From a virus, in the IMG/VR virus record IMGVR_UViG_3300030085_000334, positions 1 to 22,013 of that record: 22,013 bases of DNA; one strand, written 5' to 3'. The notes under the pieces were generated by a model that worked only from the letters and a program-made list of their open reading frames with translations, ran no database searches and was not told the origin of the DNA. Positions 1,701 to 17,730 of the stretch are shown here, piece after piece (the stretch's first letter is position 1; each line of letters opens with the position of its first letter). Made by a program: the position numbers and the translations under genes.

Positions 1701-2149
1701 TGCCGTATATAGGTAAGGATGTTCCAACAGCATATCAAAGTACAACAGCCGTACAAAGATTTAATGGTGATGGAAGTGATACAACATTTACATTGACAAC
1801 AGCCGTAAGTTCTGTGCAAGATGTATTAGTATCTGTAGATGGTGTGGTACAAGATACTGCAGCTTATACAATACCTGATGGTACAACTTTAACATTTACT
1901 GCTGCACCTTCAAGTGGTACAGGTAATATATTCGTGAACTACCTTGCACCTCAAGCGTCAACAATAACACCTGCTGCTGAGAACAAAGGTAACTTTAAAG
2001 GTGGTGGATTGTTTAGAACAAATGCTCAATCATTGACAGCAGATATAACAATACTTGCTACAGAAAATGCTAACGTAACAGGACCTTTTACTGTTGATAG
2101 TGGAGTAACACTTACAATAGAATCAGGTGGAACATTGGTGACTATATGA
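1700..2149 (+). CDS. Two-domain tail protein beginning MPYIGK, first copy (149 aa)
   Basis: The N-terminal half has a pattern common in phage tail and fibre proteins: MPYIGK, then FNGDGSDTTFTL, a VSVDGVVQ strand near residues 44-51, a GTTLTFTAAPSSGTG turn and an IFVNYLAP strand. The C-terminal half (about 107-149) has the FRTNAQSLTADITI and ENANVTGPFTV pattern, ending in a short beta segment. The second MPYIGK gene at 4648-5106 keeps this two-domain plan, most clearly in the C-terminal half (SADITI, GP[IF]T, short beta end). The gene is coupled on both sides (TAATG upstream, ATGA downstream) and heads the first copy of a four-gene cassette. It is probably a base or adaptor for the small proteins that follow, which is inference. 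Confidence 0.65.
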   Translation: MPYIGKDVPTAYQSTTAVQRFNGDGSDTTFTLTTAVSSVQDVLVSVDGVVQDTAAYTIPDGTTLTFTAAPSSGTGNIFVNYLAPQASTITPAAENKGNFKGGGLFRTNAQSLTADITILATENANVTGPFTVDSGVTLTIESGGTLVTI

Positions 2150-2607
2150 GTACATTACTAGCAGATACAATTAGAAAAACTGGTGGAACAGCAGGGGTAG
2201 ACATAAGAGTTAAAAATACTTCTGTGTATGAGTCAGATGGTGGCACAAGTGTTACGCAAAACCTAGCACAAAGTTTGTGTAAGGCTTGGTTATCTTTTGA
2301 CCAAACTTCCCCTTCATTAATAGATAGTTTAAATACAGCTTCTATGACAGACACTTCAGCAGGTAAATATGCAGCTAATTGGACAAACAATTTTGGTAAT
2401 GCAACTTATATGGCAACTGAAAATACTGCTGCTGATGGTAGTGCATATGGCAACTATGGTGCTTCAAGTCATAATAGTTGGCACAGATTAAACAGCCAAA
2501 GAACAACAAGTTTATGTCAAGGTGCGTTTTATTATACTGACAGTGGTTCAGGAGTATATGCTGATGCTAAAACTATTGAAGGTATGTTTATGGGAGACTT
2601 AGCATGA
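2146..2607 (+). CDS. GDLA-family small tail protein, type A, copy 1 (153 aa)
   Basis: First of seven related small proteins. Its N-terminus (LLADTIRKTGG, then NTSVYESDGG) matches the gene at 5103, and the motif QNLAQSLCKAW sits at residues 38-48 in both. The family core SLIDSLN...MTD...WTNNFGNATYMA follows, then a Ser/Asn/Tyr-rich variable part and the ending MGDLA. It is about 10 to 25 residues longer than its relatives, mainly in the variable part. It starts by ATGA overlap with the MPYIGK gene. Its last codons (GGAGAC) give the ribosome-binding site for the next gene. Structural or receptor-contacting roles fit the fibre context but are not shown by the sequence. Confidence 0.6.
   Translation: MSTLLADTIRKTGGTAGVDIRVKNTSVYESDGGTSVTQNLAQSLCKAWLSFDQTSPSLIDSLNTASMTDTSAGKYAANWTNNFGNATYMATENTAADGSAYGNYGASSHNSWHRLNSQRTTSLCQGAFYYTDSGSGVYADAKTIEGMFMGDLA
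2273..2289 (+). repeat. Shared 17-base core GTTTGTGTAAGGCTTGG (first copy)
   Basis: Identical at 2704-2720, with one change at 5634-5650, and a 15-base match at 4344-4358; at 5230-5240 the first ten bases match. It encodes the L-C-K-A-W core of the small tail proteins. Confidence 0.7.
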
Positions 2608-3020
2608 GTGAAGTAAAGACTAACAAACTCACAGGCACAACTTCAGCAGGTTCAATCGTTGTAACAGGTGAAGGTGGTTCTACTACGACTAATCTGCAAC
2701 AGGGTTTGTGTAAGGCTTGGGTTAGTATGCCAGAAGATGGAGCATCATTAGCTGACAGTTTTAATATTGGTAGTTCAGTAGATTCTGGCACAGGAGATAG
2801 AAGAGTAGGGTTTACTAATAATATGAATAATGCACTTTACGCACTTACAACAGGAGTAACAGATAATACTGCTTCTACTTCTTTTTTAATGACAGACATA
2901 ACAGCAGGAACAATAGCAACAACAGGTTTTGATTTTGAAGTTTATTTTGGTTCATCAAGTAACGATAGAACAGCCTTTGATGAAGAATCTTTTGTTACAG
3001 TTCATGGAGATTTAGCATAA
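2604..3020 (+). CDS. GDLA-family small tail protein, type B, copy 1 (138 aa)
   Basis: Its closest relative in the window is the gene at 5531. Both have TGTTSAGS or TGVTTAGS, then a VTGEG-[GN]-STTTNLQQGLCKAW stretch (the core motif is at residues 30-39 here). The core SLADSFN...TG...FTNNMNNALYAL follows, then a diverged acidic region containing FDFEVYFGSS, and the ending HGDLA. It starts by ATGA overlap with the previous gene and ends by TAATG overlap with the next. The conserved ends and core with a free middle-to-late region suggest a common fold with a variable surface. Confidence 0.6.
   Translation: MSEVKTNKLTGTTSAGSIVVTGEGGSTTTNLQQGLCKAWVSMPEDGASLADSFNIGSSVDSGTGDRRVGFTNNMNNALYALTTGVTDNTASTSFLMTDITAGTIATTGFDFEVYFGSSSNDRTAFDEESFVTVHGDLA
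2704..2720 (+). repeat. Shared 17-base core GTTTGTGTAAGGCTTGG (second copy)
   Basis: Exact copy of 2273-2289, about 430 bases apart. Conservation at DNA level across otherwise diverged genes makes it a possible crossover point. Confidence 0.7.
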
Positions 3021-3406
3021 TGGCTTTTGGTAATTTAAAATTTGATACGCTGACAACTTCTGATGCTAAGAACACAAACACAGAAAAATCTATTGATACA
3101 AGTTATTTATTTAATGGTATAGCAAAAAATTGGATGAGTGCAACTGAACCGGGAAGTGTAGGGGATTCATTTAATGTTTCATCTACATCAGATGATGGTG
3201 ACGGAATACACTCAGTTGTTCTTACTAATAATATGGCATCTGCTGCTCATGCTGTCGTTACAGGTATGCAAGATGCAGACATGGCTTGTCTTGGAGAAAG
3301 TGGTAGAGCAAGTACAGGTTACATGGTAACTTTACTTCAAAGAGCAGATTCTTTAACAAGAACAAATGGCGACCATTTTACTGCATTATTTGGAGATTTA
3401 GCATGA
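3020..3406 (+). CDS. GDLA-family small tail protein, type C, copy 1 (128 aa)
   Basis: This copy lacks the LCKAW cysteine: the core motif is NGIAKNW at residues 32-38, like AGSAKAW in the gene at 5938. The N-terminus (NLKFDTLTTSDAKN) is a diverged form of the family's LxVDTI segment. It continues with VGDSFNVSSTSD and VVLTNNMASAAHAVV, then a region with Cys and Met, and ends LFGDLA. TAATG overlap at the start; the stop overlaps the ATG of the next gene (ATGA at 3403). It closes the first cassette. Confidence 0.6.
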   Translation: MAFGNLKFDTLTTSDAKNTNTEKSIDTSYLFNGIAKNWMSATEPGSVGDSFNVSSTSDDGDGIHSVVLTNNMASAAHAVVTGMQDADMACLGESGRASTGYMVTLLQRADSLTRTNGDHFTALFGDLA

Positions 3407-3876
3407 TAAAAACACCTGAGTTTCAAGGAACACATTTATGGGAACGATTACATTGGGCGAAAGATAACTTAGAGAAAGTGCAATCAGATATACGAGTAGT
3501 ATACGAAGACCCTGAAGATATGGACAATCCTGCAAAGGTTTTAGTTCCTGACCCTAATTGGATGGCTTGTGCATTACAGGGTGGCATTTTACCACCTGTT
3601 GAAGTATATTGGGAATTAGCAAAAGACGAAGCACAACCTGATTTTGAAAAACATACGAGAGGGTATTTGTTGCATAACACTAAACCTGTTGAAGCAATGA
3701 CAGAAGAACAAGCAATAGAATACTTAATTCGTAAAGATATTCCACAACGTGTATGGCGAACATGGAATGAGGGCAACAAACCAAAGATGGTTATATGCCG
3801 AACACATCAACTGCCTGAACATCGTCAATGGCGAAACGCATGGCAAATAACCGATGATATAGAACTAGTAGCATAA
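3403..3876 (+). CDS. Unknown protein of the fibre region, 157 aa, Trp-rich
   Basis: Unlike its Thr/Ser-rich neighbours, this is a charged, Trp-rich, soluble protein. Visible segments are TPEFQGTHLWERLHWAKDNL at the N-terminus, PDPNWMACALQGGILPP around 49-65, EEQAIEYLIRKDIPQRVWRTW around 101-121 and a C-terminal EHRQWRNAW at 139-147. The last segment resembles DRHFRNAW in the following gene. It begins inside the conserved GGAGATTTAGCATGA boundary of the previous gene and ends 10 bases before the next start. The position between fibre genes suggests an assembly or chaperone-like role rather than a surface structure, but no family is recognised with confidence. Confidence 0.55.
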   Translation: MIKTPEFQGTHLWERLHWAKDNLEKVQSDIRVVYEDPEDMDNPAKVLVPDPNWMACALQGGILPPVEVYWELAKDEAQPDFEKHTRGYLLHNTKPVEAMTEEQAIEYLIRKDIPQRVWRTWNEGNKPKMVICRTHQLPEHRQWRNAWQITDDIELVA

Positions 3877-3886
3877 GGAGAAAAAT

Positions 3887-4258
3887 ATGACAAGTTTTAT
3901 CGTAGATAAGGATGGCAACCAGATTGATGCATCAACAGTTTCATCAAAGCCATCAGACCGACATTTTAGAAATGCTTGGGCAATTTCTGGTAAAGTTATT
4001 TCTGAAGACATGACTAAGGCTAAAGAAATATTTAAAGATAAGATAAGGGAAGTAAGAGGTCCTTTATTAGAAGCTGAAGATGTAGTATATATGAAAGCAC
4101 TAGAAGCAGATGATTCTACTGCTAAAACAAATTCAGTTAATAAGAAGAAAGCATTAAGAGATGCACCTGCGGCAAAAGCCATTTCAGATGCAGACACTAT
4201 TGCTAAATTAAAAGCAGCGTGGGATACATCTGTACTTGGTGACAGTCCTTACGCATAA
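3887..4258 (+). CDS. Putative tail-fibre assembly chaperone-like protein, 123 aa
   Basis: The start follows AAGGAG eight bases upstream. The N-terminus is short and Asp-rich, then SDRHFRNAW at 23-31, a helical stretch MTKAKEIFKDKIREVRGP at about 42-59, LLEAEDVVYMKALEADD, KALRDAP at 88-94 and LKAAWD at 108-113. This order (a D-R-x-F-R-N-A-W block, a K-rich helix, a Met-Lys-Ala-Leu-Glu helix, L-R-D-x-P, a final L-K-x-x-W) is a recurrent small-protein pattern beside fibre genes of alphaproteobacterial phages. It is often annotated as a tail assembly chaperone. The protein is helical and soluble, consistent with a non-virion helper. Function rests on this resemblance. Confidence 0.5.
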   Translation: MTSFIVDKDGNQIDASTVSSKPSDRHFRNAWAISGKVISEDMTKAKEIFKDKIREVRGPLLEAEDVVYMKALEADDSTAKTNSVNKKKALRDAPAAKAISDADTIAKLKAAWDTSVLGDSPYA

Positions 4259-4267
4259 GGAGTAATC

Positions 4268-4648
4268 ATGCCTTTAACTAATTTAACAAAAGGTTTAACC
4301 GTAGATTCTGAAGGTGGTTCTGCGACTACTAATCTTGTACAAGGTTTGTGTAAGGCTTATGCAACACACACTGCAGCAGTTTCTGTATTAGATAGTTTTA
4401 ATGAAAGTAGTGTTTCAGATACAGGAACAGGTCATTTTGGTTTAAATTTTACTTCTAATATGGCTAATGCTAATTATGTAGGCACTGGTTCTAATATTGG
4501 AAGTGATGACTCTTTTGCTACAGGTTTTATTTCAGACGGAGCAGTTCCCTTATCATCAAGAATGGATTATCAATTTAGAAATTATGATACAGTTGTTGCT
4601 ACAGACCAAGACTTTCAAAGAGTTATGACACACGGAGATTTAGCGTAA
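4268..4648 (+). CDS. GDLA-family small tail protein, unpaired copy (126 aa)
   Basis: Type B-like in its core: EGGSATTNLVQGLCKAY (core motif at residues 22-31). It lacks the usual LxVDTI start, beginning instead MPLTNLTKGLTVD, so its N-terminus is shorter. It continues with LDSFNESSVSDTGTG and NFTSNMANANYVGTG, then a variable region, and ends THGDLA. AGGAG lies 6 bases before the ATG. The stop overlaps the start of the second MPYIGK gene (TAATG at 4646-4650). It is the only family member not in a cassette, so it may be a leftover of a third cassette or a separate duplicate. Confidence 0.6.
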   Translation: MPLTNLTKGLTVDSEGGSATTNLVQGLCKAYATHTAAVSVLDSFNESSVSDTGTGHFGLNFTSNMANANYVGTGSNIGSDDSFATGFISDGAVPLSSRMDYQFRNYDTVVATDQDFQRVMTHGDLA

Positions 4649-5106
4649 TGCCATACATAGGAAAAGCACCCAACTTTGGAGTAAGAAGTAGATTTGTATA
4701 TCAAGCTACAGCAGGACAAACATCCTTCAGTGGTTCAGATAGCAATTCATTAACACTTACATACAACGACAGTCTATACATGGATGTGTATCAGAATGGT
4801 GTGTTGTTAAAGGCAGGAACAGACTACACAGCTACAACAGGTACAACAGTCGTACTCGTTGTAGGTGCAAATTTAAATGACGTAGTAGAGATGATTGTGT
4901 ATGATGTGTTTAGTGTAAATAATACCTACACTAAAACTGAGTCAGATACACGTTATCCTTTTAAAGGCAACAACAGTATCATAAGGTTAAATGGTCAGAC
5001 TATATCAGCAGACATTACAATAGACAGTGATGAGAATGGTGTAAGTGCAGGACCTATAACACAGAACGCTACAGTTACTGTTAATGGTTATTGGAGTATC
5101 GTATGA
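4648..5106 (+). CDS. Two-domain tail protein beginning MPYIGK, second copy (152 aa)
   Basis: Starts MPYIGKAP like the gene at 1700. The middle differs more: it has a FVYQATAGQTSFSG segment, YMDVYQNGVLLKAGTDYTAT (about 50-69), a long beta strand pattern, and TYTKTESDTRYPFKGNNS, a common fibre linker. The C-terminal part (IRLNGQTISADITI, then ENGVSAGPIT, ending VNGYWSIV) aligns with the first copy. TAATG overlap upstream and ATGA overlap with the next gene show tight coupling. It heads the second cassette. A structural or adaptor role in the tail is likely. Confidence 0.65.
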   Translation: MPYIGKAPNFGVRSRFVYQATAGQTSFSGSDSNSLTLTYNDSLYMDVYQNGVLLKAGTDYTATTGTTVVLVVGANLNDVVEMIVYDVFSVNNTYTKTESDTRYPFKGNNSIIRLNGQTISADITIDSDENGVSAGPITQNATVTVNGYWSIV

Positions 5107-5531
5107 CAAGTCAATTAAATGTAGACACAATCGTAGACAAAGCAGGTAGTGGTGGTTCTAATATAAAAATTGCTAATACATCTACTTATGTTTCAGATAG
5201 TGGTGCTACTACACAGAATACTGTACAAAGTTTGTGTAAACAGTGGGTGCTACTTCAAAGTAGTGGAACTTCCGTCACAGATTCATTTAACAATACAAGT
5301 GTTACAGATAACGGCACTGGTGATTATACTTTAACAAGAACCAACAATATGGCAAATGCAACCTATTGTGCGATTGGTAGTTCTGGAGATAATTCAACTT
5401 CCTTCAATGTTTGCTCAGATGTAGGCGAACAAACAACATCTGTGCATGATATAAGATGCGTTAATGACGCAGCCAATTCTACACAAGATGTTCCAGATAC
5501 AGTTGGTGCAGTACATGGAGATTTAGCATAA
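5103..5531 (+). CDS. GDLA-family small tail protein, type A, copy 2 (142 aa)
   Basis: The start at 5103 is chosen because its ATG overlaps the previous stop (ATGA); an in-frame TTG at 5091 would only add four residues. The N-terminus (LNVDTIVDKAGSGG, then NTSTYVSDSG) matches the gene at 2146, with QNTVQSLCKQW at the same residues, 38-48. The core VTDSFNNTSVTDNGTG and RTNNMANATYCAIG follows, then a variable part unusually rich in Cys for this family (CSD, RCVND), and VHGDLA. It ends by TAATG overlap. Confidence 0.6.
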   Translation: MTSQLNVDTIVDKAGSGGSNIKIANTSTYVSDSGATTQNTVQSLCKQWVLLQSSGTSVTDSFNNTSVTDNGTGDYTLTRTNNMANATYCAIGSSGDNSTSFNVCSDVGEQTTSVHDIRCVNDAANSTQDVPDTVGAVHGDLA

Positions 5532-5938
5532 TGGCAAGTCAACTTAAAGTAGATACAATAACAGGTGTAACAACGGCAGGAAGCATTGCTGTTACAGGAG
5601 AGGGCAACAGTACAACAACAAACTTGCAACAGGGTTTGTGTAAGGCATGGGCTAGTTTAAATGATGCAGACACTAGTAGCCCTGCACTTTTAGATAGTTT
5701 TAATTCTTCAGGATTTACAGATACTGCAACAGGTCATTTTAAAATAAATTTTACTAATAGTTTTAATAATAATGATTTTGCTACAACCACCTCTAGTCGT
5801 TTTGCAGATGTAGATGTTGGTGCAATGTTGACTGACCAAACAACATCTCAAACTAAACTTTTAGGTCGTGGTTACAATTCAGCCAGTAACACTGATTTTA
5901 ATGAAAATATGTGTGCATCTATGGGAGATTTAGCATAA
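5531..5938 (+). CDS. GDLA-family small tail protein, type B, copy 2 (135 aa)
   Basis: Nearest relative is the gene at 2604. The N-terminal 40 residues are very close: SQLKVDTITGVTTAGS, then VTGEGNSTTTNLQQGLCKAW (ending at residue 40). The core LLDSFNSSGFTDTATG and NFTNSFNNNDFATT follows. The rest diverges and ends MGDLA. TAATG overlaps on both sides. The contrast between the near-identical N-terminus and the diverged C-terminal half suggests selection for change, or module exchange, in the latter. Confidence 0.6.
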   Translation: MASQLKVDTITGVTTAGSIAVTGEGNSTTTNLQQGLCKAWASLNDADTSSPALLDSFNSSGFTDTATGHFKINFTNSFNNNDFATTTSSRFADVDVGAMLTDQTTSQTKLLGRGYNSASNTDFNENMCASMGDLA

Positions 5939-6315
5939 TGGCAAGTGAACTTAGAGTAAATACATTAAAGGATGCAAGTGGCAATAACTCTGTAGCAACG
6001 AGTGTGGTGTTTGCAGGTTCGGCAAAGGCTTGGGCAAATTTTGATGGAACAAGCACATTATCTACTAGAGATAGTTATAATGTAGCTAGTACCACTGATA
6101 ACAGTACAGGAAATTATACTAATAACTTTAGTAATAATATGGTCAACGATGATTTTTCAGCATCAACCGATAGCCAAGATGCAACTACAAGAACTAATGT
6201 ACACTCAAGTTTTGAAGACCAGACCACTGGCACTCTTAAAATATTACATTATGAAGGTGGTTCTAGCACAGATACAAACAGAGTGGGTACAATGGTCATG
6301 GGAGATTTAGCATGA
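5938..6315 (+). CDS. GDLA-family small tail protein, type C, copy 2 (125 aa)
   Basis: The start at 5938 is supported by TAATG overlap and by MASELRVNTLKDASGNNS, the family's typical N-terminus; an upstream in-frame ATG at 5911 lies inside the previous gene. Like the gene at 3020 it has no Cys in the core (AGSAKAW at 26-32). It continues TRDSYNVASTTDNSTG and NNFSNNMVNDDFSAS, then a region ending with VMGDLA. Its final codons form the GGAG site for the 338-aa fibre gene, which starts by ATGA overlap. Confidence 0.6.
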   Translation: MASELRVNTLKDASGNNSVATSVVFAGSAKAWANFDGTSTLSTRDSYNVASTTDNSTGNYTNNFSNNMVNDDFSASTDSQDATTRTNVHSSFEDQTTGTLKILHYEGGSSTDTNRVGTMVMGDLA

Positions 6316-7328
6316 GTAAAGCAGCAGAATTAGCGGCATTGATAGGCAGTCAGTCTTCTTTAGCCAATCGTAATATGATTATAAATGGCAATATGGAAGT
6401 TGCACAAAGGTCTACTTCTGTTGCTGTAACAGCGAGTGGATTTCATACTTGTGACAGGTGGGGTATAGCCTTATCAAGTGATGGAAGATTTACCATGTCA
6501 CAAGAAAGTATTACCGATTTAGAAGGTTTTGGAAAAGCATTAAAACTAGATTGCACAACTGCTGATACTTCAATAGCTTCAAACGAATTACTTCTTCTTT
6601 ATCAAAAATTTGAAGGACAGTTTGTACAAAAAATGCAAAAAGGATTTTCTACTGCTAAACCTGTTACAGTGTCTTTTTATGTAAAAGGAAATGCAAATGC
6701 AACTTATGTAGCAGAATTACTAGACCAAGATAATTCAAATAGACATATTAATAAAACTTTTTCTGTTACAACAAGTTGGAGTAGAGTATCTTTAACATTT
6801 CCGGGTGACACTACTGGGAAATTAGATTCAGACAATGCAAGTTCCTTACGACTAAATATATGGTTGCATGGTGGTAGTGATTACACAGGTGGTACATTAC
6901 AAACAAGTTGGGGTAGTATTGTTGGTGCTAACAGAGCAGCAGGTATAACATCATTTTTTGATAGCACAGATAGAGAGTTTTTTATAACAGGTGTTCAGAT
7001 GGAATTAGGAGAAGTTGCAACACCTTTTGAAACGATACCTTTTGGAGATAATTTAGCTAGATGCCAAAGGTATTATTCAAAAGTACAATACAGTAACTGG
7101 AGTGGTAGAGTAGCAAGTGGCAATGCTTATTATATCCATGACGGATTTCGTCAAACTATGAGAGCAAATCCTACTGCATCAATTCTTTCTCAATCACAAA
7201 GCACCTTTCCTACTGATAGAAGTTTTGGTGATATGACAACAAACGGTGTTGGCACTCAATGTACTGCTCCCTCAAATGCTGATGGAGCGTATTGGTACAC
7301 AGGCATAGCACTTGATGCAGAATTATAG
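6312..7328 (+). CDS. Tail fibre protein with jelly-roll-like binding region, 338 aa
   Basis: The N-terminus has RNMIINGNMEVAQR at 20-33, then a CDRW segment at 47-50. Residues of about 55-240 show the order seen in a common phage fibre or minor tail domain: an SFYVKGNANATY strand (about 121-132), SVTTSWSRVSLTFPGDTTG (about 151-169), LNIWLHGGSDYTGG, and FFITGVQMELGEVATPFE (about 223-240). CQRYYSK follows at 251-257. This domain resembles carbohydrate-binding jelly rolls. The last 80 residues are likely a distal tip. It is the last gene of the fibre block, coupled by ATGA to the last GDLA gene. Role in host contact is probable from domain and place. Confidence 0.75.
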   Translation: MSKAAELAALIGSQSSLANRNMIINGNMEVAQRSTSVAVTASGFHTCDRWGIALSSDGRFTMSQESITDLEGFGKALKLDCTTADTSIASNELLLLYQKFEGQFVQKMQKGFSTAKPVTVSFYVKGNANATYVAELLDQDNSNRHINKTFSVTTSWSRVSLTFPGDTTGKLDSDNASSLRLNIWLHGGSDYTGGTLQTSWGSIVGANRAAGITSFFDSTDREFFITGVQMELGEVATPFETIPFGDNLARCQRYYSKVQYSNWSGRVASGNAYYIHDGFRQTMRANPTASILSQSQSTFPTDRSFGDMTTNGVGTQCTAPSNADGAYWYTGIALDAEL

Positions 7329-15500: not shown

Positions 15501-17542
15501 AAGGTAGAACTTTTGTAACACTTGTAAATTTAAACGCTGAAAAATCTTTGAGAGCAGCATTTGATAACGTTGTTGATAAAAGCTTACCAGCTATAGAAAG
15601 AGAGTCGTTGATAGATGGAATGGTAAGTGATTTTAAAGCTGGTATGAATGATGCAGTAAGAGATGCTTATAAGATAGAAGATTTTGAAGAAATAGGTTCA
15701 ATTCATTTTTTAGATTATCTACAAAACAATCCTTATCAAGGAAAACAATTTAACGTACCACCGATTACAATATCTATAAAAGATGCTGATATGCTTTACA
15801 GAAACATTTCAGAAAAAGGAAGAGAACTTTTACAATCAGATTCAGCTATACAAAGAGCGACAGGCGCTGCTTACATACAACTATCTAATAAAATAAACAG
15901 TCAATTAAAAAATAGTGCAGGAGGTAAAGAGTTACAATTTATAAGACTAGAATATTCTGCAAATGTGGGTAATAAAGAAAAAGATGGCAGTTTCTTCGGA
16001 GAGTATTATAATTATAAATTTTCTAAGGCAAAACAACCTAAAAAAGATTTAATTATACGAGAAGCTGCAGGGATGAATTTATTGAAGTCTTTAAAAACAA
16101 ATGCAAGTTCAGCACAAAAATCTCAAGATTTGTCTAATTTTAAAGATGCTGTTCAAAATGAATTTGGCATAATACAATTTCCACCTGAATATGCAGATCC
16201 TAATAATTCATCACGATTAAGAAGAGATATAGATTTAGAAGAAGTATTACCTAATGGTAAGACCGTAGCAGAAGATATACGAGATAAAATTAAAAACGGT
16301 GAGTTTGAATACATACTCGATGATACAACAGACATAGGTAAACAGGGCATTGCTCTTTTAGATCAAGTTATGACTCAAATGTTTAGAGAAATGAATGTTT
16401 ATGAAATAAGTTATAAAAACATATTAGGTAGAGTAGATTCGACAGTAGTATCAAATCCAAAAGCTAAAGGTCCTACAACCACTATGCTTACTAGAGATGA
16501 TGGGCTAGGATTATTTGGTTATAAAGAAATGCAAGATGCTTTGACTTTTAAATTAAAAAGTGGAAAACAGCATGTCGTAAATTTAGATGATTTTGTTAAA
16601 ACAGAGACAGATTTAGCTAGGTTAATGGAAGCTGATACTGCGTTAGCAAAACAATACAATGATTTTATTGATGAAATAAATTTAGCAATAAAGTCGTTAG
16701 ATATGAAAGTTAAAGGACAGTTTGATACAACTTCAGAATCACTTAAAATGGAGTTTCAAAGAGTATTAAATTTTGATCCTGAAAAAGGGTTACTAAAACA
16801 ATATCTTGGAGCATTGCCACCGGGAATACCTGATGAAATAGCAGATGTAAATAGACTTTCTTTATTTGATAAAGATCTTAATCTTATGTACAAAGCGTTA
16901 AAATTAGATGGGGTTAAAGCCACAAAAGAAGAGGTCAATCGATATTTTGCTGGAGTTTTATTACAGGATATACAAAATATTTATGGAAAAGCAACACCTC
17001 AAGCTTTAGAAAGTGTAAATGGTGGACTCGTTCAAGGAACTATAATGAAAGATCCTTATTCGGCATTAAAAGCTTTAGAAGATCCTACGACAAAAGCCAT
17101 GTTTAAAAAGTTAGGTGTTAGTGATGATCAATACGAAGCTCTTCTAGCTGTAACAGGTCATAGCGTTTATGTAGATTATATGAGTAGAGGTTCAGCATCA
17201 GGAGTGAGTTTGCCAGAAACAGCTATTTCAGATACAGGAATAATATCTCGTGCTTTTAACTATGCAAGAGGATTAGTTAGTAAAGAATATATTCTTGTTG
17301 AAGCTGGGTTTAGAATAATGCGTGATAACGACATGAGAATGATGGATTTTATTTTAAACGACCCACAAGCTGCAGACATGTTTACAGAAATGTTAAAAGT
17401 AAAAAATGATCCAAGCAAAATAAAATTTTTAGCAACAACATTTCCACAAAGAATGAGAGCTTATATAGTTAGACAACTTGCTTTTGCAGGAAAATATGCA
17501 GAAACTTTTGAAACTTATGAACCAACTGAGGGAGATAATTAA
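12581..17542 (+). CDS. Giant virion or ejection-type protein, 1653 aa
   Basis: Begins by TAATG overlap with a very acidic N-terminus (EEQKVDEQNQDEQ). It is the largest gene here by far. A weakly hydrophobic stretch occurs near residues 364-390 (TFAITNAGTTAGLIGTSKIL, then LPFIYSGIAE). Another small-residue stretch lies near 570 (YSALGYLTAATGIANIVTNV). The C-terminal ~120 residues look like one compact domain (VEAGFRIMRDNDMRMMDFIL, FPQRMRAYIVRQLAF). No lysozyme or transglycosylase, protease or polymerase motif could be found by eye. In T7-like podoviruses the last giant late protein is ejected to form a DNA channel, and position and size match that role; sequence homology is not claimed. Confidence 0.6.
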   Translation: MAEEQKVDEQNQDEQLIKVEKGEIVPDLSEVSKNIKSGEMLQAASNLNEVQKSLLSSPEASVTFAPSVLRAEVEKDIKEQTTVAPTVSLKDLLSSNKPLTEFENVPPNLTEQDVSVARFYTNAKKNNLQIDPKDEASYAQTLNKVINEIQASKQQAEFEVPELPVPFTRDGKLLPEVDYNNLYLIPNSKKALAINRSNFLKFMEVVRDEEGVSFTETNPLAAKVLLKHFGTGSVRQEVAREFKDLGGGLNSVYKATENLISDTLKSWSEWHDGNEKNPMDYFRKNSVNRKREHQAWLNNPNSWLPGHTLRLNEFIEKKFIEENGQEAFDNLSNDEKLDLKLTPQQALNFFNFAFSEQSMLEQMSTFAITNAGTTAGLIGTSKILKLPFIYSGIAETPRNFFLRMDNERRRLGYLNMPTSGKGGYIQMKFGKEYETATGFKKMAALFNSIRTDIKGEVGYFSVINQEKNIGPTVKAAMDKAHQNLKKAYESGNKAAIEKADKLAIVAEDNYLLSLMKNNKFDPNNNFIIPKQYLGKIAGAEMFPSAIQGFTFSAFDDPTDPTSLERAELYSALGYLTAATGIANIVTNVGGNIFNRFEVFNDISFTTKSMIDNFILMDRFGITFPKLIDEDIANLKVSDVPGGPKRNITPSEYQGLLQLKTIFSRLGPESYDQIEKNRKKLTSQINAVDKIMPDGPTKDFVLENLKLSFSETSQIQAFAAMGQKMAMNLNFRDLTKVTPRFLNSILHSRRANKRLLAHSLILKELEEQFVTQSGKMSKAEKKGFTDVINIVRKTNEALSQQLNEKKQIDRNTLNALTKAFSNPDQVKGKTAEQLAQVASELFEATKILDSVVGEPTFDFQKILKSQEKRLLSLSTLHTNLITNVQDSISNYSKKGGNVNALREVGEQTFKITHEYKTSTGDVLYSSLDKFEEIDAQGLINSIVDLHRGTSFADGISEDKLLTGFIPNSAFANSPEGRTFVTLVNLNAEKSLRAAFDNVVDKSLPAIERESLIDGMVSDFKAGMNDAVRDAYKIEDFEEIGSIHFLDYLQNNPYQGKQFNVPPITISIKDADMLYRNISEKGRELLQSDSAIQRATGAAYIQLSNKINSQLKNSAGGKELQFIRLEYSANVGNKEKDGSFFGEYYNYKFSKAKQPKKDLIIREAAGMNLLKSLKTNASSAQKSQDLSNFKDAVQNEFGIIQFPPEYADPNNSSRLRRDIDLEEVLPNGKTVAEDIRDKIKNGEFEYILDDTTDIGKQGIALLDQVMTQMFREMNVYEISYKNILGRVDSTVVSNPKAKGPTTTMLTRDDGLGLFGYKEMQDALTFKLKSGKQHVVNLDDFVKTETDLARLMEADTALAKQYNDFIDEINLAIKSLDMKVKGQFDTTSESLKMEFQRVLNFDPEKGLLKQYLGALPPGIPDEIADVNRLSLFDKDLNLMYKALKLDGVKATKEEVNRYFAGVLLQDIQNIYGKATPQALESVNGGLVQGTIMKDPYSALKALEDPTTKAMFKKLGVSDDQYEALLAVTGHSVYVDYMSRGSASGVSLPETAISDTGIISRAFNYARGLVSKEYILVEAGFRIMRDNDMRMMDFILNDPQAADMFTEMLKVKNDPSKIKFLATTFPQRMRAYIVRQLAFAGKYAETFETYEPTEGDN

Positions 17543-17730
17543 TGAAAACCTACAATAATAAATCAACCATAAGAAAGCCCATGATGTACGGTGGAGGTGC
17601 TGGTAGTATGATGTCTAAAAATACTATGGGTGATTCTATGGCTATGGGAATGAAAAAAGATAAGATGAATAAAAACATGGCCGCTATGGGTATGGGCATG
17701 ATGTATGGGTCAAAAGTAAAGAAAAAGTAA
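17542..17730 (+). CDS. Tiny methionine- and lysine-rich protein, 62 aa
   Basis: GGAG lies nine bases upstream in the end of the 1653-aa gene, and TAATG couples the two. Of 62 residues 15 are Met, 12 Lys and 9 Gly; there is no Cys, Trp or Phe. Repeats include KPMMYGGGAG, MGDSMAMGMKKDKM and MGMGMMYGSKVKKK. The high Met, Gly and Lys content, the TAATG coupling and the good ribosome-binding site argue for a real gene. Similar short Met-rich proteins are found at this place in other marine phages, but no function is established. It is the last gene of the plus-strand operon. Confidence 0.65.
   Translation: MKTYNNKSTIRKPMMYGGGAGSMMSKNTMGDSMAMGMKKDKMNKNMAAMGMGMMYGSKVKKK

Follow-up and report, generated by a model that had tools for sequence, protein, structure and literature searches.

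The DNA encoding the conserved C-terminal tail of tandem phage tail-fibre genes almost certainly also marks the start of the next gene

Why do seven small genes of an uncultured marine phage all end in Gly-Asp-Leu-Ala (GDLA), written with the same few bases, directly at the start of the next gene? The window, the whole stretch of DNA analysed here, is a 22 kb virus record (IMGVR_UViG_3300030085_000334; 22,013 nucleotides), and the genes in question very probably form an array of tandem one-domain tail-fibre genes, receptor-binding-like and packed without spacers. All four of the members searched match the profile of PHROG 11355, 'tail fiber protein' (E 8e-8 to 3e-12). The gene order of the tail block is that of the gp28-gp41 block of HMO-2011 (NC_021864), with PYIGK (gp33), TPEFQG (gp36), gp35, SKAAELA (gp28) and small tail-fibre genes between them, and gene order and sequence mark the window as a tail module of the HMO-2011 kind. 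A megablast search of the window against phages gave no match, and neither did tblastn with member 6 at E 1e-3. The array, including the junctions at which a Shine-Dalgarno (SD) sequence is predicted, reads as follows.

2146..2607, plus strand: family member 1, 153 aa, ending MGDLA; PHROG 11355 tail fiber
2593..2606, plus strand: junction 1, GGAGACTTAGC and ATG(A), SD spacing 7
2604..3020, plus strand: family member 2, 138 aa, ending HGDLA
3006..3022, plus strand: junction 2, GGAGATTTAGCA and TAATG, SD spacing 10
3020..3406, plus strand: family member 3, 128 aa, ending FGDLA
3392..3405, plus strand: junction 3, GGAGATTTAGC and ATG(A), predicted SD for the gp36 homologue
3403..3876, plus strand: HMO-2011 gp36 homologue (74% identity), 157 aa, without GDLA; its own AAGGAG in the spacer after it
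3887..4258, plus strand: HMO-2011 gp35 counterpart by position and sequence, tail-assembly-like, 123 aa; its own AAGGAG in the spacer after it
4268..4648, plus strand: family member 4, 126 aa, ending HGDLA
4634..4650, plus strand: junction 4, GGAGATTTAGCG and TAATG, predicted SD for the gp33 homologue
4648..5106, plus strand: HMO-2011 gp33 counterpart (PYIGK...WSIV); its C-terminus would write the next SD in another frame, TGG AGT ATC GTA TGA
5103..5531, plus strand: family member 5, 142 aa, ending HGDLA
5517..5533, plus strand: junction 5, GGAGATTTAGCA and TAATG, SD spacing 10
5531..5938, plus strand: family member 6, 135 aa, ending MGDLA; modelled as a beta-sandwich
5924..5940, plus strand: junction 6, GGAGATTTAGCA and TAATG, SD spacing 10
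5938..6315, plus strand: family member 7, 125 aa, ending MGDLA
6301..6314, plus strand: junction 7, GGAGATTTAGC and ATG(A), predicted SD for the gp28 homologue
6312..7328, plus strand: HMO-2011 gp28 tail fiber counterpart (SKAAELA...), last in the array and outside the GDLA family

A preliminary description of this DNA had reported seven genes ending in GDLA, coded GGAGAYTTAGC and followed by ATGA or TAATG, with GGAG 7 or 10 bases before the next ATG, and both observations were confirmed at 7/7 family ORFs and junctions. Exact copies of GGAGAYTTAGC lie at 2593, 3006, 3392, 4634, 5517, 5924 and 6301, all on the plus strand and each closing a family ORF; the overlaps that follow are ATGA at 2604, 3403 and 6312 (GGAG spacing 7) and TAATG at 3020, 4648, 5531 and 5938 (GGAG spacing 10). 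With up to two mismatches allowed, the window holds 21 matches against 7.7 expected, a number that none of 100 shuffles reached. The terminal Gly codon is GGA in 7/7 tails against a usage of 31% (p=3e-4) and the Leu codon is TTA in 7/7 (p=0.014), while GAT and GCA, each found in at least six of the seven (p=0.54 and p=0.05), are near expectation; a single GCG Ala codon occurs among the tails, at 4643-4645. The only clearly unexpected codon within the window is that for Gly, and most of the other agreement among the 11-base copies is the ordinary codon usage of an AT-rich phage. By themselves, the seven sites would be moderate evidence, since the Gly codon alone clearly stands out, and relatives had to be brought in.

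Homologues were collected at the protein level, with single proteins as queries because an alignment of the seven members had no conserved stretch, and were recognised by a core-only profile from which the tail was excluded. This yielded 408 distinct homologous ORFs, 378 of them ending in GDLA. The terminal Gly codon of these 378 is GGA in 363, GGG in 12, GGT in 3 and GGC in none; at internal Gly positions of the same genes, the counts are GGT 2280, GGA 1404, GGC 736 and GGG 464, so that GGA or GGG makes up 38%. Among the conserved columns tested, codon bias is highest at the terminal Gly (1.52 bits; the runner-up has 0.77). With one sequence per 60%-identity cluster, the terminal Gly is GGA or GGG in 275/277, and a conserved Gly inside the protein in 135/281 (p=1e-51; like the other p-values from these related sequences, this one overstates independence). 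The exceptions in the GDLA lineage are four GGT codons. The neighbouring codons vary, with GAC 232 and GAT 146 for Asp, and TTA 239, CTC 72, CTA 43, CTT 12 and TTG 12 for Leu. Rare tails (GVLA, GGLA, GELA, GDSA, GDVA, GDIA and GSLA) mostly retain GGAG or GGGG. The tail has 20 distinct 12-base spellings in which only GGR-G is nearly fixed, and on this ground conservation of the full 11-base stretch as a DNA element was rejected.

The synonymous variation at Asp and Leu, together with the retention of GGAG by rare tails, places the constraint at the DNA level on GGAG: these bases appear to be held as nucleic acid, and Asp and Leu mainly as amino acids. The earlier proposal that the same bases are held by two needs is thus upheld only in part, in that two needs seem to act on one stretch, and are real, yet fall mostly on different bases, with the rest of the stretch synonymously variable. 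Varied codons for GDLA elsewhere had been named as one observation that would speak against the proposal; Asp and Leu codons do vary, and Gly is GGA or GGG in 375/378. The same data bear on whether recent duplication, recombination or gene conversion could account for the pattern, with the GGAG bases unselected. The junction DNA is indeed very similar, a single haplotype (GGAGACCTCGCA) recurs in 71/378, and tandem members carry signs of exchange. However, clusters below 60% protein identity still write GGR in 275/277 while Leu and Asp codons vary, and the same rule is seen in an unrelated domain family and in GC-rich Gordonia phages. Shared ancestry alone is therefore a very improbable explanation, and the synonymous variation beside a nearly invariant GGAG appears to have largely refuted it already.

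If GGAG serves the next gene, the codon choice should track the presence of a start in range, as the preliminary description had anticipated. In the GDLA lineage, the next start lies at -1, +2 or +3 for every member (ATGA, GTGA, TTGA, TAATG or TAAATG); two cases that seemed to lack a downstream gene (L192 and L263) are followed by TAATG and tiny ORFs below the length threshold. Since all members of the lineage have a coupled start, the comparison with genes lacking a downstream start was made instead on distant homologues from Vibrio, Pseudomonas and freshwater phages and from bacterial genomes. Here, with the terminal Gly assigned by rule rather than by structural alignment, GGAG or GGGG is found in 33/38 of those whose next start lies 9-16 nt from that codon versus 5/25 of the others (Fisher p=1.4e-7), bearing out the expected dependence. 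On one contig (L288), a member with a start in range has TTTGGAGATTAGTTATG, and the last member, for which the next start comes much later, has TTTGGCGATTAG. Where a spacer is present, an SD-like site lies in the stop or spacer in 132/185, and where starts overlap, it lies in the upstream ORF in 363/366 in the lineage and in 43/58 in the outgroup, a split that follows in part from geometry. GGT or GGC despite an overlapping start is found in L495, L499, L512, L515, Dinoroseobacter phage DS-1410Ws-06 and Dunaliella viridis virus SI2.

The rule is not confined to one family. The string GGAGAYTTAGCNTRATG has 147 distinct sites in viral contigs, 128 of them at the end of GDLA family genes and most of the remainder following either different long domains that resemble tail proteins or ORFs truncated at a contig edge. 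A second tail domain (...ASNTFLVVGDIA), collected by protein and unmatched by the profile of the first family, ends in GDIA or GDLA; its terminal Gly is GGA or GGG in 75/79 with a start in range versus 1/5 without (p=2e-4, counts that take in GTG-start pairs), and GDIS written with GGC occurs where no start is in range. In Gordonia phages, whose GC content is 68-70%, near-identical tails of TGDLA and a stop are spelled GGC GAT in Wizard and Nettuno, where the next start lies at +3 or +5, and GGA GAT in Zirinka, at a TGATG overlap. In two neighbouring families, the signal is carried by the remaining two frames: the Ser codon of WS[IV][VI] is AGY in 88/91 versus a background of about 55%, and MEIT uses GAG in 39/44 versus a background of 31%. 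GDLA is therefore one of three frame solutions rather than a unique one.

These families also inform the question of whether GDLA merely reflects an underlying ribosome-binding site and its spacer, with no role as protein. Such a reading would suit the lineages with coupled starts that still write GGAG or GGGG under GGQA, GGQS, GGNS or GDQ tails, as well as an 8-codon minigene (in L263) that retains GGAG and ends GENK. RNA requires neither Leu nor Asp, however, and across the 378 members, Leu is kept through TTA, CTC, CTA, CTT and TTG and Asp through GAC and GAT; the second family, moreover, keeps GDIS with GGC where the start is out of range. We regard an RNA signal alone as highly unlikely.

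Where the residues lie in the protein is indicated by a model of member 6 (70 homologues, mean pLDDT 82.5), which predicts a beta-sandwich with its last strand at residues 125-131 and GDLA at residues 132-135, directly after it. The nearest solved folds are the C-terminal domains of the phiAB6 tailspike (Z 8.9 over 91 residues, 2.8 A) and the Pam1 tailspike (Z 8.5 over 70 residues, 1.8 A), followed by lectins, including the Helix agglutinins (Z 6-7). The best Foldseek E value for the tailspike/H-type lectin fold is 0.04 and a Z near 8 can reflect a common arrangement, so this likeness is suggestive only, and fold likeness by itself is no proof of function. GDLA had been proposed to be a C-terminal peptide tag, an idea that the analysis does not bear out: Gly closes the last beta strand in the model, and other lineages end in GGQA, GGNS, GD, GN or otherwise. 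Given those different endings, GDLA is best read as the tail of a single lineage, apparently kept at the protein level.

Taken together, the DNA of the GDLA tail almost certainly also tells the ribosome where the next gene starts, and we consider it very likely, as a whole, that the Gly codon and following base of these packed tail-fibre genes supply a GGAG that is the SD of the next gene while Asp-Leu-Ala is kept as protein. Because the next start overlaps the stop codon, the SD has room only within the final codons of the gene before it. The terminal Gly, which ends the last beta strand, is written GGA (or GGG) and a codon beginning with G comes after it, so that GGAG or GGGG stands at a spacing of 7 or 10 bases to the start that follows; Asp, Leu and Ala are kept additionally at the protein level. 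A ribosome finishing one gene would then meet the start signal of the next, from which we infer coupling or re-initiation.

With one and the same outgoing signal on each member, loss, gain or swapping of members at the boundary between GGAG and the start could occur without breaking downstream translation. Downstream of members lie another member (221), a gp36-type gene (72), a gp28-type gene (51) or a gp33-type gene (15), all after the same kind of ending, and the junction type tracks the downstream gene (ATGA before gp28 in 51/51; TAATG before gp33 in 15/15). Among 103 member pairs at 60-97% identity, 25 differ in the kind of downstream gene, such as L280 and L281 (96% identical) and member 4 of the window and L278 (91%). 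Remnant minigenes of 8-9 codons, MASIGDLA (L192), MSTLKGDLA (L072) and MASIGENK (L263), each followed by a stop, look like members cut down to a start and a putative SD. The earlier suggestion that each gene is an exchangeable cassette thus stands as regards exchange or loss of members at the junction, to which near-identical members and remnants lend moderate support, and not as regards selection for exchangeability. These same pairs and remnants might instead indicate that what keeps the tail is its use in cassette exchange, as a short homology or site, rather than translation. That is improbable, as the stretch of 11 bases varies at the DNA level (20 spellings of 12 bases, GGR-G alone nearly fixed) and the bias is weaker where no start is in range. 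Returning to GGAG as the next gene's SD, a bolder extension would have GGAG and the start form a standard coupler selected for exchangeability, allowing modules to be inserted, deleted or reordered with chain translation intact, and would make this the cause of a convergence of unrelated phage tail proteins on a C-terminal G-[DG]-x-[AS]; we hold this to be possible and rather doubtful.

These results have implications for how such genes are read. Much of a striking protein ending can be explained without a peptide tag, by the next gene's translation start shaping the codons. This is a warning that a conserved C-terminus in closely spaced phage genes need not be a functional motif, and it suggests in simple terms how a phage could maintain a long series of host-recognition genes and reshuffle them. 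Among known systems, Puniceispirillum phage HMO-2011 shares with the window the arrangement around gp33, gp35, gp36 and gp28 and the GDLA junction, and has five family members (gp29, gp32, gp34, gp37 and gp40) ending GDLA with GGAGACCTAGCATGA, GGAGACCTCGCATAATG and similar; it differs in having C1q-domain and other genes where the window has GDLA members. HMO-2011-type phages are defined by a DNA polymerase with a DnaJ-like insertion and by core genes (PMC9038755). The receptor-binding C-terminal domains of the phiAB6 and Pam1 tailspikes and the H-type lectins may share the beta-sandwich predicted here for the window family, but sequence identity to the tailspikes is about 9%, and theirs is part of a long spike whereas the family is a separate small gene. 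Coupling at ATGA-type overlaps is established, with the SD helpful and not always essential (reviewed by Brown and Wade 2025, PMC12548453; PMC6728339), and the window shares the ATGA and TAATG-type overlaps of such pairs; it differs in forming a chain of seven paralogous members, for which coupling is our inference. SD sequences inside the upstream gene are likewise known for genes that overlap or are spaced by 1-4 bases (Palleja et al. 2009, PMC2784483). A narrow literature search found no earlier reports of such dual-use C-termini, which is weak evidence. The window resembles the pairs of Palleja et al. in that a putative SD lies within the upstream ORF 4-13 bases before the start at 7/7 junctions, and the codon adapts to the SD only when the SD must lie in the ORF (33/38 versus 5/25, 75/79 versus 1/5, and the Gordonia phages). 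It differs in that one codon choice is fixed within a conserved C-terminus, repeated through an array and found in hundreds of phage genes, and the window case is thus a conserved, well-replicated and unusually clean variant of the established SD sites in upstream ORFs.

The GGAG within GDLA-coding DNA, the putative Shine-Dalgarno (SD) site of the next gene, has counterparts at the ends of two other genes, where the signal is coded in different reading frames:

5089-5106: WSIV C-terminus of the HMO-2011 gp33 counterpart, coding the next gene's GGAG in a frame other than that of GDLA
1688-1702: MEIT C-terminus of a neighbouring gene, coding the next gene's GGAG in the remaining third frame

Codon choice among the relatives of both genes matches the respective GGAG frame, with Ser biased to AGY for WSIV and Glu to GAG for MEIT. 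Outside the tail array, a further Gly-Asp ending, that of a 1653-aa gene, codes an SD-like site upstream of the next start:

17527-17544: EGDN C-terminus, GGAGATAATTAATG

By codon counts in the GDLA tails of the homologous loci L126-L289, Asp is GAC in 61%, compared with 27% in the rest of the same genes, and Leu CTG occurs 0 times against about 28 expected; the SD explains neither the GAC excess nor the CTG absence. The pairing of GAT with a CTN Leu codon is missing from the tails of all GDLA homologues counted (0/378), probably because GATC is strongly avoided, both in L126-L289 (686 sites observed, 2208 expected) and in the window (48 observed, 78 expected).

Between tail genes of three homologous loci lie minigenes of 8-9 codons in which a start and GGAG are kept:

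L192:3435-3461: MASIGDLA-stop
L072:1805-1834: MSTLKGDLA-stop
L263:617-643: MASIGENK-stop

They probably remain from deleted family members, or may be leader-like couplers.
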